64,000 bases of DNA from Rhodobacteraceae bacterium NBU2976 (GTDB taxonomy: Bacteria; Pseudomonadota; Alphaproteobacteria; Rhodobacterales; Rhodobacteraceae), in assembly GCA_023630215.1 (NCBI GenBank), contig JALPRQ010000001.1, forward strand, positions 1,178,001 to 1,242,000. Direction: 5' to 3'. Below, piece by piece: positions 12,146-17,574 of this stretch. The first letter of the stretch is position 1; the number at the start of each line of letters is the position of its first letter. The position numbers and the translations under genes are program-made. The notes beneath the pieces were generated by a model. It had not been told where the DNA came from, did no database searches, and worked only from the letters and a program-made list of their open reading frames with translations.

Positions 12146-12221
12146 GCTGTCCCTAACTGCGTCAAATTTTAGAAAAATACCTCTGGATTTTTTAAGCCAG
12201 TCTTAATCCGACTCGTAGATG

Positions 12222-12246
12222 CTCGTTCGCGTAATAGGCGAACGAG
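12222..12246 (+). promoter_or_regulatory. Perfect inverted repeat covering the ribosome site of the DUF6473 gene
   Basis: CTCGTTCGC (12222-12230) and GCGAACGAG (12238-12246) are perfect 9-base complements around a 7-base loop. The right arm shares its last three bases with the GAGGTGA Shine-Dalgarno (12244-12250) of the next gene. If transcribed, the hairpin would sequester part of the ribosome site. As DNA it could equally be a repressor operator. Confidence 0.55.
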
Positions 12247-12255
12247 GTGAGCGGG

Positions 12256-13050
12256 ATGGGATATGGCACAGCATTAATAGACTCCGGGGAGATTGAATTG
12301 TATCGTTTTGGTCGCAGTCAGCAGGTTTTCCGCGGGCCGCGCCCGTCTCTGAAATCCCCATACATTGCCTTTATCGGTGGGTCGGAACCCTTTGGCAAAT
12401 TTGTGGCGAGTCCTTTTCCAAAACTGGTTCAGAAGAAGATTAAAACTTCCTGCGCAAACTGGGGCACCCCAGGTGCTGGGCCGGGCTTTTTCCTGAAGGA
12501 CCCCGTGATCCTTGAAGCCTGTTCAAACGCTGAAATTTGCGTGGTGCAGGCGATGAACGCGGAACCGCTATCAAATCGAATGTATTCTGTTTTCCCAAGA
12601 CGCAATCAGCGCATTCGGGGGGTTTCAGATGCCTTGAAATCGCTATATCCCAAAACGGATTTCAGTCGGTTCAAATATGTTTCGGCCATGCTGAAACATC
12701 TTCGACAGGAAGACGCAAGAGCGTTTCAGATCGTGCATTCGGAAATGACAGCGGCCTGGATGGCAAGGATGCTGGAACTGTTGGCAGATATTGAAACCAC
12801 AAAGATATTGCTTTGGCTGGATGTGAAGGGGGTGCCCTCGGTGATCACCGAGGATTTGGTGGATTCGCTAGCGCCACATGTCGATCAAGTCTTAAAAATT
12901 CAGATTGATGAAGAGATGCAGGGCGGCATTCTGGGCGGGGCATCACGGGAATCTTTCTGGATGACACGTCCGGTGCACGAATTGGTCGCCAACCGCCTGA
13001 CCCCGTCGATCAAGTCGCTGATGACAGGGAAAAGCGATCTGGTTGCATAA
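12256..13050 (+). CDS. DUF6473-family protein
   Basis: A 264-aa protein of the type annotated as DUF6473 in Rhodobacteraceae. The N-terminal segment PYIAFIGGSEPFGKFVASPF resembles the first strand and turn of a hydrolase-like or glycan-modifying fold, and NWGTPGAGPGFFL follows. A catalytic set is not clear. No signal peptide or membrane segment is seen. ATG 12256 is chosen because GAGGTGA ends 5 bases before it; GTG 12247 would lie inside the ribosome site. The gene is monocistronic between accA and the convergent etfA. The inverted repeat over its ribosome site suggests special control. The function is unknown. Confidence 0.72.
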   Translation: MGYGTALIDSGEIELYRFGRSQQVFRGPRPSLKSPYIAFIGGSEPFGKFVASPFPKLVQKKIKTSCANWGTPGAGPGFFLKDPVILEACSNAEICVVQAMNAEPLSNRMYSVFPRRNQRIRGVSDALKSLYPKTDFSRFKYVSAMLKHLRQEDARAFQIVHSEMTAAWMARMLELLADIETTKILLWLDVKGVPSVITEDLVDSLAPHVDQVLKIQIDEEMQGGILGGASRESFWMTRPVHELVANRLTPSIKSLMTGKSDLVA

Positions 13051-13071: not shown

Positions 13072-14004
13072 TTATCCAAGCGCTGAAATCAGCTCGGGAA
13101 CCGCGTCGAATAGGTCCGCGACCAATCCGTAATCGGCCACCTGAAATATCGGCGCGTCTTCGTCGGAATTGATGGCGACGATTATCTTGGAATCTTTCAT
13201 CCCGGCCAAATGCTGGATCGCGCCAGAAATGCCCACCGCGATATAAAGCTCGGGGGCGACGACCTTGCCGGTTTGACCAACTTGCCAATCATTCGGGGCA
13301 AAGCCGGAATCAACCGCAGCACGAGACGCCCCAACCGCTGCGCCAAGCGCGTCAGCCAGTTTTTCGATCAACTCAAAATTGTCTTCGGACCCAACACCGC
13401 GCCCGCCCGAAACCACGATCTTGGCGGATGTAAGCTCGGGACGATCGGACGCCTGAGTCTTGTCTTCGATCCATTTCGACTGAGTGTTTTGCGGACTGAC
13501 TGAGAGTGTTTCAACACCTGCCGAACCCGTTTGTGCGACCGCATCAAAACTGGAGGTGCGCACGGTGATCACCTTTATGGCATCGCGGCTTCGCACCGTC
13601 TGGATCGCGTTCCCGGCATAGATGGGTCGTTCAAACGTGTCGCCATCAACAATCCCGGCGACATCCGAAATGATCATCACATCCAATAACGCCGCAACGC
13701 GCGGAAGAACGTTTTTGCCCGAGGCCGTCGCTGGCGCAAGGATATGCGAATATGCTGCGGCAATATCGGCCACCAGCTGAGCAATGGGTTCGGCCAACCC
13801 ATTCGCATAAGCAGGATCATCGGCCAACAGAACCTTGGAAACACCATCCAATTGCGCAGCCGCCTGAGCCGCCGCAGCGCACCCGGTTCCGGCACACAGA
13901 ACAACAACATCGCCCAATTGCTTGGCAGCAGACACGGTTTTCGCGGTTTGATCAACCGCCAAATCCTGTCCGTTGATTTCGGCTAGAACAAGAACAGTCA
14001 TCAC
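13072..14004 (-). CDS. etfA: Electron transfer flavoprotein subunit alpha
   Basis: EtfA binds FAD and, with EtfB, passes electrons from acyl-CoA and other flavin dehydrogenases to ETF-quinone oxidoreductase. The 310-aa protein has the C-terminal FAD domain signature [20 protein letters not shown] followed by [19 protein letters not shown]. It overlaps etfB by 4 bases. It would serve the acyl-CoA dehydrogenase encoded at 46.9-48.7 kb. It converges with the DUF6473 gene, the stops 21 bases apart. Confidence 0.97.
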
Positions 14005-14762
14005 ACCACCCCCGCTTCGTTTTTAAGTTTCTCGACCAGATCATTCACACTGCCAACGCGTACGCCAGCCGAACGGGTTGGCGGTTCGGTGGTGGTCACG
14101 ATTTCCAATCTGGGGGAAATATCGACGCCGAAATCAGCCGCCGTTTTTTCCTCTAGCGGTTTTTTCTTGGCCTTCATGATATTGGGCAAACTGGCATAGC
14201 GTGGTTCGTTCAAGCGCAGGTCCACCGTCACGATGGCGGGCAATTGGACCGAGATTGTCTGTAGGCCGCCATCAACCTCGCGCGTGACGGTCGCGCTGCC
14301 GTCTTCGACCAGGAGCTCGGAAGCATATGTCGCTTGCGGCCAACCCAACAGCGCGGCGAGCATCTGACCCGTCGCATTCATATCATTGTCAATCGCCTGC
14401 TTCCCGGCAATCACGATATCCGGTGCTTCGCTATCGACAACTGCTTTCAACAGTTTGGCGACAGCAAGCGGTTCTAAATCCTGATGAACATCGTCAGCGG
14501 CCACAATCAGAATGGCCCGATCTGCGCCCATCGCGAGTGCTGTTCTGAGCGTCTCTTGCGCCTGCTTGACCCCGATGGAAACGGCGACGATTTCTTCGAT
14601 CTTGCCTGCCTCTTTCAAGCGGATGGCCTCTTCCACTGCAATCTCGTCGAAGGGATTCATCGACATTTTTATATTGGCGAGGTCAACGCCACTTCCATCT
14701 GCTTTAACGCGTGCTTTCACGTTGTAATCGATCACGCGTTTGACGGGCACGAGAGCTTTCAT
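14001..14762 (-). CDS. etfB: Electron transfer flavoprotein subunit beta
   Basis: The 253-aa AMP-binding subunit of ETF. Typical segments are [36 protein letters not shown] and the signature [20 protein letters not shown] that contacts the partner dehydrogenases. A CGGAGG ribosome site precedes the ATG. It is first in the leftward etfBA unit. On its upstream side lies the oppositely oriented ghsA-ghsB pair rather than the adenosyltransferase that, as I recall, often neighbours etfB in this family. Confidence 0.97.
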
Positions 14763-15014
14763 GAATTCGTATCCTCCGAGTATTTGGCGCTGCGCAGTTT
14801 AAACTCACACTGCACAGAATCCCACTTCGTCCTGACTTAATCAATCAATTGCCGTCCCTAGCCGCAAGAGGAACATTGGGTCAAGTTGCACCTGACGCAT
14901 GTCATTCCACAATATTGGCAAATTTAATCAAAAATTAATTACATCCGGATAAACAGGCTGACGCCAGTATTGAAACCGATACGGCCGAACCTCCCTTTCA
15001 GAGAAACAGATATG

Positions 15015-15033
15015 TCGAAGATCAGGTCTTCGA
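15015..15033 (+). promoter_or_regulatory. Leader inverted repeat before ghsA
   Basis: TCGAAGA (15015-15021) and TCTTCGA (15027-15033) are perfect 7-base arms around TCAGG. The repeat ends 4 bases before the AGGAG ribosome site (15038-15042). It may fold in the mRNA leader or be bound as DNA. In Rhodobacter capsulatus the homologous spike genes are under quorum-sensing control, but this dyad is not an obvious lux box. Confidence 0.45.
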
Positions 15034-15047
15034 TGACAGGAGCATTC

Positions 15048-15314
15048 ATGGCGATTGATACGTATAAGAACATGGTTGGTGGGCTGGAAAGCCCGGCACG
15101 CGAAGCCCAAAACATTACTCCAAGTGATTCAAGCGACCTGGTTTTCACCTCGCGGTCTTTGTATATCGGCAGCCCCGGTGACGTGGTCGTACATATGTCG
15201 GGACAGTCTACGCCAACGACGTTTACGGCGGTCCCGACCGGCGTTTTGCCCATTCGCGTTGACCGGGTGCTGGCAAGCGGGACGACCGCAGGCCAAATCG
15301 TGGCCTTGTGGTGA
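15048..15314 (+). CDS. ghsA: GTA head-spike base protein (Rcc01079/GhsA family)
   Basis: The 88-aa protein, started at ATG 15048 with AGGAG 5 bases upstream, matches the small head-spike base protein of the Rhodobacter capsulatus gene transfer agent. Signature segments are ITPSDSSDLVFTSRSLYIG, VLPIRVDRVLASGTTA and the end GQIVALW. In RcGTA, GhsA and GhsB form spikes on the capsid that bind the capsule of recipient cells and are encoded away from the main GTA cluster. ATG 15012 or TTG 14970 are in-frame alternatives but lack a good ribosome site. ghsB starts 4 bases downstream. Confidence 0.85.
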   Translation: MAIDTYKNMVGGLESPAREAQNITPSDSSDLVFTSRSLYIGSPGDVVVHMSGQSTPTTFTAVPTGVLPIRVDRVLASGTTAGQIVALW

Positions 15315-15318
15315 TCGC

Positions 15319-16800
15319 ATGGATCTGGCGCTAAAACTTGGTCTGGATGGACTATCGTTGCGTGGTGGTTCAGCGGGCACGAACGCGGCGATCACCGCCC
15401 TTGGCGCACGCAATGGTTTCGCGATCGATTTTGTAAATGACCGGATGGTGATCAATGACGCGCTTACCCCTGCGAACGCGTATGATGGCTCACCAGTGTC
15501 AAAGCTTACACAATATGGTGTGGACGCTTACGAGATTGACGACGTCAAAGGGCTGAACCTGTCGGCTTCACGCGACTTTGGGATTGCGCTAGCGACCAGC
15601 CTGTTCCCGTTTAATCCTGGTGCAATTCACGTCTATGCGCGTTTCGAATTGAACGCGGCTGACCATAGCGATCAACGCTATTTGTTTATGGTCGACAATG
15701 CCGGCAATGATCGCTTTGCAATCTATACGACAACGGGTGGACCGTTTCGGTGGGTGACTGCGGATGGAAACAGCGCGGATACCGAAATCTCTGGCTTGTC
15801 ATTGACCGGACAAGTTGAAATGCGGATGACGGTTGGCGCAGATACCTATGGGCGCACATGGGTTGATGATGGCGGTGTGCAGACCAACGACAATCTGCAT
15901 CAAATCGCCGCCGCCACCCCGACACATGTTGGGATCGGGGGTTACCCCGATCAGGCATTTCGCCTGCTCGATGGCTATTTGGCCGAGATTGCTGTGATCT
16001 GCGAAGATATTCCAATCGAAAAACGGCTTAGCCTGAGCCCTTATCCGGCATTATTTGCAGCGGAAGGCGACAGCCATACGTTCAACGTGTCTATTGGATT
16101 AAGCCCTGCCGACTTTTATCCGGCGCAAATTGGCGTCAGTCGGGGAATGGTGGTAAGAAACGTCGGGGCATCCGGGGATAGCTCGTCACATATGTTGGCC
16201 GATGTTTCGAATTTTCTGGCAGGTGGCGCGCCGGATATTGGCTGCATTTATGCGGGCTCAAATGATATGGACACGACAATATCCCCAACACCTGCGCCCA
16301 CAGATACGGTGTTTTCTGTTGTGGATATCAGCAAACACACGGTGGGAGGGCACGTGTTGGTTAACGGGGAAAGCCGTGTCATCAGCAGCATTTCCGGGTC
16401 TGAGATCACACTAACCACACCGCTGACAGAAGCGCCACTTGTGGGCGCTGTGGTGGAAGTCGATACGACGGCGAATATCCGCGCCTGGATTCAAGCCGTT
16501 TCTGCCGCCGGGGTCCCGGATATCTATGTGGTCGGTGCACATTATCTGAATTTTGCCAGCGGTGGCGATACGACCGAAGGGGAACAGTCCTTGCGCGCAG
16601 CGTTGCGATCAAAACAACTGGCAGCGGCGACGGCAGAGTCCGTTACTTATGTTGATACCTATGCTTTCATGCGGCAACGCATTCTGGATGGCTTTGTGGC
16701 ACAGGGTGACTGGGCGGTCTGGCATCAAGGCGCCGCAGACACACATCTTACCGCCGCTGGAGAACAGGAAATCGCCAATGCCATTCTGGCAGAATTATAG
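15319..16800 (+). CDS. ghsB: GTA head-spike fibre (GhsB position) with LamG-like and SGNH hydrolase domains
   Basis: A 493-aa protein directly after ghsA. Residues 1-60 are a probable capsid-attachment segment. Residues 75-230 look like a concanavalin/LamG jelly roll (AIHVYARFELN, RYLFMVDNAGNDRFAIYTT). From 248 on there is an SGNH/GDSL hydrolase: Ser252 in EGDSHTFN, a second-block NVGASGDSS, Asn315 in AGSNDMD, and Asp474 and His476 in DTHLT. A beta-rich insertion of about 65 residues (320-388) interrupts the hydrolase. By position this is the spike fibre that contacts the recipient surface; an esterase acting on capsule or LPS acyl groups is inferred. The stop nearly abuts the convergent adenosyltransferase gene. 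Confidence 0.78.
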   Translation: MDLALKLGLDGLSLRGGSAGTNAAITALGARNGFAIDFVNDRMVINDALTPANAYDGSPVSKLTQYGVDAYEIDDVKGLNLSASRDFGIALATSLFPFNPGAIHVYARFELNAADHSDQRYLFMVDNAGNDRFAIYTTTGGPFRWVTADGNSADTEISGLSLTGQVEMRMTVGADTYGRTWVDDGGVQTNDNLHQIAAATPTHVGIGGYPDQAFRLLDGYLAEIAVICEDIPIEKRLSLSPYPALFAAEGDSHTFNVSIGLSPADFYPAQIGVSRGMVVRNVGASGDSSSHMLADVSNFLAGGAPDIGCIYAGSNDMDTTISPTPAPTDTVFSVVDISKHTVGGHVLVNGESRVISSISGSEITLTTPLTEAPLVGAVVEVDTTANIRAWIQAVSAAGVPDIYVVGAHYLNFASGGDTTEGEQSLRAALRSKQLAAATAESVTYVDTYAFMRQRILDGFVAQGDWAVWHQGAADTHLTAAGEQEIANAILAEL

Positions 16801-16801
16801 A

Positions 16802-17371
16802 TTAGCGATTGGCGCCGGGGGTCCATAGCAGATCGTCGGCACCATTATCATTGGCCACCCGCGAGGCCACAAAAAACCAGTCTGACAACCGGTTCAGAAA
16901 GGTCACCGCATGGGGGTTCACCGGTGTTTCCAACGACAGGGCAACGGTCAATCGTTCAGCGCGCCGACATACAGTGCGACAAAGATGGAGATGCGCTGCC
17001 AGTGCGGATCCCCCCGGGAGGACAAAACTCTTGAGTGGGGACAGGGCTGTGTTCATCGCATCAATTTCTTGTTCCAGCCGTTCAGTTTGCTGAGCAACCA
17101 TCCGCAAGGGCGTATAGTCCAGCGTGTGATCATTTCCTTCCGGACGACATAAATCTGCGCCAAGATCGAACAGATCGTTCTGAATGCGCTCTAACTGCGT
17201 TTCAAAATCCTCGACGGCATAAAGACGCGCGATACCAATGGTTGCGTTCACTTCGTCCACGGTGCCGTAGGCGTCGACCCGAAGGGAGTGTTTGGGAACG
17301 CGTGTGCCATCGCCCAGTCCCGTGTCACCACGATCGCCGGTTCGGGTATAGATGCGATTTAGCGTAACCAT
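16802..17371 (-). CDS. PduO-type cob(I)yrinic acid a,c-diamide adenosyltransferase
   Basis: This 189-aa enzyme moves adenosyl from ATP to cob(I)alamin or a precursor, giving the coenzyme B12 form. The N-terminal ATP loop IYTRTGDRGDTGLGDGTRV, the HLHLCRTVCRRAERLTVAL helix and FLNRLSDWFFVASR define the PduO/MMAB family; it is not the CobA/BtuR type. It overlaps the twin-TM gene by one base. Its 3' end faces ghsB with one base between the stop codons. Confidence 0.93.
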   Translation of the reverse strand: MVTLNRIYTRTGDRGDTGLGDGTRVPKHSLRVDAYGTVDEVNATIGIARLYAVEDFETQLERIQNDLFDLGADLCRPEGNDHTLDYTPLRMVAQQTERLEQEIDAMNTALSPLKSFVLPGGSALAAHLHLCRTVCRRAERLTVALSLETPVNPHAVTFLNRLSDWFFVASRVANDNGADDLLWTPGANR

Positions 17372-17574
17372 TAGCTTTTCCCCCGGAAAAATATGAAAAT
17401 TAGGATTAGGATGATTGCGACCGCTTGCAGACCAATTCGCCAGCGCATCACCTTATTGGCATGCTTGCGATTCCAGTCCCCACCCCGGGTAAACCCGATC
17501 AGGCCAAATGTCAGCACACCCAGCACCGCAAGGCAGGCAATTATAACAAGTATAAAAAGCGGGTCAGACCACAT
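17371..17574 (-). CDS. Twin-transmembrane HIG1-like protein
   Basis: A 67-aa protein with two membrane helices (ILVIIACLAVLGVLTFGLIG and IGLQAVAIILILIFIFF) separated by a basic loop GGDWNRKHANKVMRWRI. This matches the HIG1-domain twin-transmembrane proteins of alphaproteobacteria; mitochondrial relatives associate with respiratory complexes. The bacterial role is unknown. It is translated with the adenosyltransferase through a one-base overlap. Confidence 0.8.
   Translation of the reverse strand: MWSDPLFILVIIACLAVLGVLTFGLIGFTRGGDWNRKHANKVMRWRIGLQAVAIILILIFIFFRGKS

Follow-up and report, generated by a model that had tools for sequence, protein, structure and literature searches.

It is quite probable that two adjacent genes, ghsA and ghsB, make up the GTA head spike of the genus studied here, a spike in which the fibre would plug its base, bind polysaccharide and remove ester groups. 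In the available portions of the published descriptions, GTA head spikes are presented as capsule binders, and the esterase-like fibre is the new part of the present reading. The literature matches listed, from which subscription journals are mostly absent, include no report of a GTA head spike with an esterase or SGNH domain.

The ghsAB locus and its base protein

The window (the whole 64-kb stretch of DNA that was analysed) contains a gap of 2,039 bp between etfB (14001..14762, minus strand), the left flank of the insertion, and the PduO-type adenosyltransferase gene (16802..17371, minus strand), the right flank. The gap is filled by two plus-strand genes, ghsA (15048..15314, 88 aa) and then ghsB (15319..16800, 493 aa), separated by 4 bp, and the adenosyltransferase gene converges on ghsB, 1 bp from its stop. 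The start of ghsB was placed at 15319, the mechanical ORF start at 15055 being overlong. The layout agrees with the sequence-only reading, which had described an 88-aa ORF and a long ORF on the strand opposite to both flanking genes. The adenosyltransferase matched TIGR00636 above its cut-off (E 3.2e-56), as did the product of a twin_helix gene at 17371–17574 with NF033233, and etfA and etfB matched ETF models, both under the curated cut-offs. The G+C content of ghsA (0.57) and ghsB (0.54) is like that of the window (0.56). Ten neighbour proteins scanned between 7.1 and 24.2 kb included no virion family, their PHROG matches being metabolic, of unknown function or lacking, which fits the earlier statement that other phage or GTA genes are missing nearby.

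By its profile matches, GhsA is a spike base protein of the Rcc01079 family. Its match to NF048002 (‘spike base protein, RCAP_Rcc01079 family’) spans the full length of the profile (E 3.2e-26, 91.4 bits, cut-off 28), and it also matched phrog_12296 (E 2.7e-22) and the solved RcGTA spike base PDB 6tb9 (E 5.8e-10). The identity first assigned to the 88-aa protein, Rcc01079/GhsA-type, is strongly upheld by the first of these matches. Relatives of ghsA are also present in 84 phage records, so the base family by itself is no proof of a GTA role.

The N-terminal alternating-leucine peptide of GhsB, MDLALKLGLDGLSL (15319..15360, plus strand), is proposed to correspond to the ‘five-point star’ by which the RcGTA base pentamer is plugged. 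In RcGTA, according to the accessible part of the source, residues 2–10 of the fibre enter the base pentamer, and alternating Ile/Leu side chains occupy pockets of five base proteins (PMC7296036). The GhsB peptide has four alternating leucines and a fifth that is off by one residue, not five strictly alternating ones. The star pattern was found in all nine genus fibres and in 13 of the 24 adjacent partners in other genera, being missing in the remaining 11, as compared with 51 of 669 control ORFs (Fisher P 1e-8 for the 13 of 24), the controls being ORFs of the same loci with the partners counted in. The 24 adjacent ORFs derive from 28 other-genus ghsA loci, four of which had no adjacent ORF of at least 100 aa, and the other-genus proteins with a star-type start are 151 to 1385 aa long. 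A ghsB orthologue follows ghsA in all nine genus loci (the G123 copy is frameshifted). Both the leucine-rich start and this constant position support the large ORF as a spike-fibre candidate.

Domains of the fibre and their predicted action

The identification of a fibre in the sequence-only reading stands; it overlooked the alternating-leucine anchor peptide and two domains, a probable lectin-like one and an SGNH one. The lectin-like beta domain (15406..16008, plus strand, approximate boundaries) is probably of the concanavalin A/laminin G type. PF13385 was matched above the cut-off in L155, a homologue 46–48% identical to GhsB (E 2.3e-7), and was not matched in GhsB itself in the Pfam scan. 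Foldseek matches of the GhsB model include sialidases and a sialidase lectin domain, the aligned part not being displayed. The model has a pLDDT of 72.9 overall, with parts of the beta domain below 60. A first model, based on seven close homologues, reached 54.6 and was for that reason left out of the fold search; the higher value was obtained after adding three homologues of 46–54% identity. GhsB had no sequence match to any PDB chain at E <=1.

The C-terminal domain of GhsB (residues 241–493; 16039..16797, plus strand) belongs to the SGNH/GDSL hydrolase superfamily, as judged by its modelled fold and its Ser, Gly, Asn and His residues. Its blocks III and V are separated by a beta insertion, and it matched PF13472 (Lipase_GDSL_2; E 6.5e-11, 43.5 bits, cut-off 32.9), a family that was above the cut-off in five of the six GhsB-type proteins scanned and below it in L091. 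The model was aligned with acetylxylan esterase 7ddy (Z 20.4, rmsd 3.2, 184 residues), and near-equal scores were given by other carbohydrate esterases, GDSL lipases and thioesterase I; the fold matches thus do not single out acetyl groups as the substrate. In the SGNH part, pLDDT over ten-residue blocks ranges from 53 (residues 251–260, which include the nucleophile) to 98.

Block I is GDSH with the nucleophile Ser252 (16066..16077, plus strand), block III is GSND with the oxyanion-hole Asn315 (16255..16266, plus strand), and block V is D-T-H with His476 (16738..16746, plus strand). Block I, Asn315 and Asp316 of block III, and T475, H476 and L477 around block V are invariant in all ten aligned homologues, as is Gly283, whose designation as the block II residue was the analyst's choice. 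The Asp expected in a DxxH motif, three residues before the His, is absent in ten of ten homologues, where Ala, Thr, Ser or Gly occupies the position, the residue two before the His being Asp or Asn. GhsB is therefore not classed as a canonical Ser-His-Asp SGNH enzyme.

With the DxxH Asp missing, the SGNH domain could be a binder only, that is, a dead or vestigial enzyme serving a GTA head spike as a second carbohydrate-binding surface, and the R. capsulatus fibre indeed works by capsule binding according to the available part of its description (PMC10218006). It is nevertheless unlikely that the domain is dead, as homologues down to 46% identity all keep Ser252, Gly283, Asn315 and His476, and a dead pocket would need none of them. 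Besides, Ser-His dyads lacking the block V Asp are described, in the accessible portion of the source, for CE2 esterases and SsEst (PMC9487903). It is likely, from the conserved residues, that the SGNH domain of GhsB is active as an esterase.

If ghsAB encodes an esterase-bearing head spike, GhsA pentamers would sit on the capsid vertices, and the N-terminal peptide of GhsB would plug each of them. The lectin-like domain would hold the surface polysaccharide of the recipient, the capsule-binding role being transferred by analogy from R. capsulatus, and the SGNH domain would free this polysaccharide of O-acetyl or similar ester groups. Such holding and ester removal may allow the particle to bind reversibly and to move towards the cell. 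GhsB probably deacetylates the recipient surface polysaccharide, its catalysis being predicted. The GTA head, if this is true, would be an enzymatic device resembling a tailspike, and the fibre would offer a testable handle on the recipients that a GTA can reach.

Descent of the locus and its relation to the GTA core cluster

The sole GTA-TIM match of the genome is at G000:C1:1520810. Within the 19.9 kb surrounding this match are the genes for terminase, portal, HK97 capsid, connector, tail tube, DUF2460 and hub proteins, an NlpC/P60 match just under the cut-off and a GTA-TIM megatron with the Rcc01698 C-terminal domain. The capsid protein was aligned with RcGTA Rcc01687 over 383 residues (E 5.5e-182). 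About 316 kb separate the spike locus (ghsA at 1193048) from the terminase gene (1509419), both on one contig; the genome thus does possess the core cluster that the reading of the pair as a remote GTA locus implies.

Within the genus, ghsA was present in nine of 13 genomes, adjoining etfB and located no more than 4 bp upstream of ghsB in all nine, with the adenosyltransferase gene 3' of ghsB, in one case cut by the contig end. In G130, etfB beside the pair is limited by the contig to its first 19 codons. The etfB site was assembled in ten of the 13 genomes, with the pair in nine and a remnant in the tenth (G124); the three others, G121, G125 and G128, lack ghsA and gave no etfB match, so the site is unassembled there. 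One genome, G131, has three etfB copies (including L100 and L101), and the spike pair was found only at the C3 copy. The comparison with other genera covered 21 etfB loci with flanks of at most 1.5 kb, out of a larger number of etfB matches, and neither ghsA nor ghsB was found in any of them. The adenosyltransferase gene was an etfB neighbour at 127–921 bp in 15 of these loci and was not found within the flanks compared in the other six. Conversely, etfA, etfB and the adenosyltransferase gene were absent from all 29 other-genus ghsA loci (up to 1.5 kb). The spacing in other genera corroborates the proposed insertion between etfB and the adenosyltransferase gene, and the occupancy of the site within the genus refines it: with nine of ten assembled sites carrying the pair and the tenth a decayed copy, the insertion dates back to the ancestor of the genus and is not recent.

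The identity of the two genes between genomes correlates with that of housekeeping genes (r 0.91 for ghsA and 0.97 for ghsB, 21 pairs of seven genomes), and dN/dS (NG86) was about 0.06–0.09 in five pairs with dS of 0.6–1.6. By these measures, ghsA and ghsB are inherited vertically under purifying selection. Taken with the distribution of sites, the simplest reading is a single entry before the sampled genomes diverged, followed by maintenance through selection.

The pair and the GTA core cluster share their fate in nine of the ten genus genomes with an assembled site: eight have both, and G124 (98% complete) has neither. At the G124 site ghsA is gone, and only codons 332–493 of ghsB persist. 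Sequence search found no GTA-TIM or GTA capsid in this genome, which keeps the two genes found ahead of the cluster in the genome of the window, then a terminase scrap with two stops, and no further GTA cluster protein matched the contig carrying that scrap. The co-loss represents a single event. The tenth genome, G130 (72% complete, 200 contigs), has an intact pair and gave no GTA-TIM, capsid or terminase match; as the three lie in one cluster, a single gap in the assembly could account for this result, or not. In the family sample, ghsA was found in 35 of 120 genomes and GTA-TIM in 104, with both in 34 of the 35 (P 0.023; the exception is G114), a weak association because GTA-TIM is so widespread.

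The same comparisons bear on another explanation, according to which the pair is part of a prophage, or a prophage remnant, and not of a GTA. The phage records mentioned above, including those where relatives of ghsA stand beside the capsid gene of the immuto phage and near the tail genes of RcapNL, speak for it, as does G130 with its pair and no GTA core gene found. A prophage is nevertheless very improbable, given the ten neighbours devoid of virion families, the single chromosomal site in nine of ten genus genomes with vertical descent and purifying selection, and the loss of both pair and GTA core in G124. Moreover, a search of 50,697 phage records with GhsB gave only partial matches (19–22% of its length), in Gordonia phages, and no full-length relative of ghsB was found in pattern-seeded IMG/VR, plasmid or phage searches.

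Relatives of GhsB were found in three of 247 other family genomes: in G001 downstream of a second ghsA copy that occupies another site, in G057 on a contig separate from that of ghsA, and in G182 (83% complete), which gave no ghsA match and whose ghsB-like gene encodes a tandem of two lectin-like domains. In G057 and G182 the genes (L154 and L155) encode SGNH fibres without an adjacent ghsA, with neighbours that appear by eye to be shikimate-pathway and recombinase genes. GhsB matched none of the 29 other-genus ghsA loci in a tblastn search. Among 385 genomes of the class, apart from its own genome, there were ten weak matches confined to about residues 228–335 and hence of no use for deepening the alignment. 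That the two genes form a secreted or cell-surface esterase system with no link to a particle, as the frequency of SGNH esterases as cell enzymes and the unpaired ghsB-like genes of G057 and G182 might suggest, is hardly credible in view of an N-terminus with the pattern of base-binding fibres and no signal peptide evident by eye, and of ghsA lying at most 4 bp upstream in G001 as in all nine genus loci.

A CtrA-type box, TTAA-N7-TTAA, is located at 14924..14938 (plus strand), 124 bp 5' of the ghsA start. The window contains two exact copies, whereas 0.31 are expected and five of 100 shuffles reach two. A CtrA-type site with no more than one mismatch was found 55–160 bp 5' of ghsA in all nine genus loci; when whole spacers were shuffled, the mean was 2.15 loci and none of 300 shuffles reached nine, although these shuffles ignore the relatedness of the loci. 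The box spacer is shared with etfB, so CtrA control of ghsAB is suggestive only. In five relatives the exact box is positioned about 17 bp from the etfB start, and these boxes were discounted as evidence on ghsA. The head-spike genes of R. capsulatus are triggered by CtrA-P together with GafA, as stated in the accessible part of PMC9638019, and late expression via CtrA would be plausible here from the box-like sequences.

A CtrA-type box common to the promoters of the GTA core and ghsA was considered and dropped as evidence because it occurs in so few core regions (exact in one of seven, with one mismatch in one more). This is in line with PMC6363796, the available part of which reports no binding of CtrA to the RcGTA core promoter. 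Across the genus, the region of the core promoter shows good conservation, with TTGACA-like and TATACC-like elements discernible by eye. The exact TTAA-N7-TTAA in the core promoter region of the genome itself (L071 6128–6142) is missing in six relatives, one of which has a one-mismatch site.

The only other exact box of the window lies about 40 bp 5' of the start of a DUF6473 gene (12192–13050, plus strand; PF20078, E 2.7e-69) adjoining etfA. This gene is kept in all six of the other genus pair loci that reach that far and is represented by fragments in G124, where the GTA is lost; SGNH-like motifs can be seen by eye in its product. The literature searched contained no mention of the term DUF6473. 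The gene may be GTA-linked or CtrA-regulated.

Head-spike fibres in other genera, phages and R. capsulatus

The Pfam scan of fibres adjacent to ghsA in other genera covered 18 of the 24 ORFs, six short ones (109–212 aa), one with the star pattern, being omitted. A sialic-acid-type acetylesterase domain was found above the cut-off in two of the 18 (L081 and L086) and a laminin-G domain in L084. Below the cut-off, GDSL_2 was matched in L078 and laminin-G in L109, and 13 of the 18 had no Pfam match. It can be tentatively suggested, at slightly less than even chances, that the GTA head spikes of Rhodobacteraceae are an exchangeable turret, where a fixed base and a leucine-star plug carry swapped bodies, some of them esterases, and that the turret of the present genus deacetylates the recipient capsule and so helps to set gene-exchange partners. 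Spike fibres with differing bodies could be found by a simple sequence criterion, a base gene combined with a leucine-star fibre gene.

One of the nearest known counterparts of the pair is the RcGTA head spike, GhsA/GhsB (Rcc01079/Rcc01080). Both systems have a base of the same family, a small locus of base and fibre genes apart from the core cluster, a fibre with an alternating hydrophobic N-terminal peptide and a GTA core cluster in the genome. The loci differ in their neighbours: the R. capsulatus genes numbered directly after the spike pair, rcc01081–01086, are capsule genes according to the available text of PMC10218006, whereas etfB and the adenosyltransferase gene flank the pair here. 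The fibres differ as well, the RcGTA fibre being 325 aa long and modelled by AlphaFold as a beta-rich protein of two domains in the accessible parts of PMC7296036 and PMC10218006, and GhsB having 493 aa and an SGNH domain.

Of the four phage records examined, two have a star-type start in the gene that follows the spike base. Rhodobacter phage RcapNL shares the base family, and the protein encoded next starts with MGLGLGIGLGL, but the pair is within a phage genome, near tail genes, and the body of the partner is 144 aa. The Flavobacterium immuto phage likewise has a base of this family and then a protein starting with MYIGLGISL, but here too the pair belongs to a phage genome, and the partner body has no GDSL match. 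The immuto base (L131 3992–5915) is 50.6% identical to GhsA and is encoded directly behind the major capsid gene; by eye, the alternating hydrophobic start of the next protein is followed by repeats. In phages DSS3P8 and RHph_Y25, the gene after the spike base lacks a star-type start.

The SGNH protein of Pseudomonas phage LIT1 and the tailspike of Cyanopodophage Pan3, two examples of phage fibres and spikes that bear an SGNH domain, are fold matches to the GhsB model, but their sequence identity is 14–15%, and the Pan3 protein is tail-borne, the position of the LIT1 protein not being stated. The RcGTA tailspike TspA is similar in being GTA-borne, acting on biofilm material and having a remote locus, and differs in being a loosely baseplate-bound trimer with a beta-helix domain, off the head, according to the accessible part of its description (PMC13420450).
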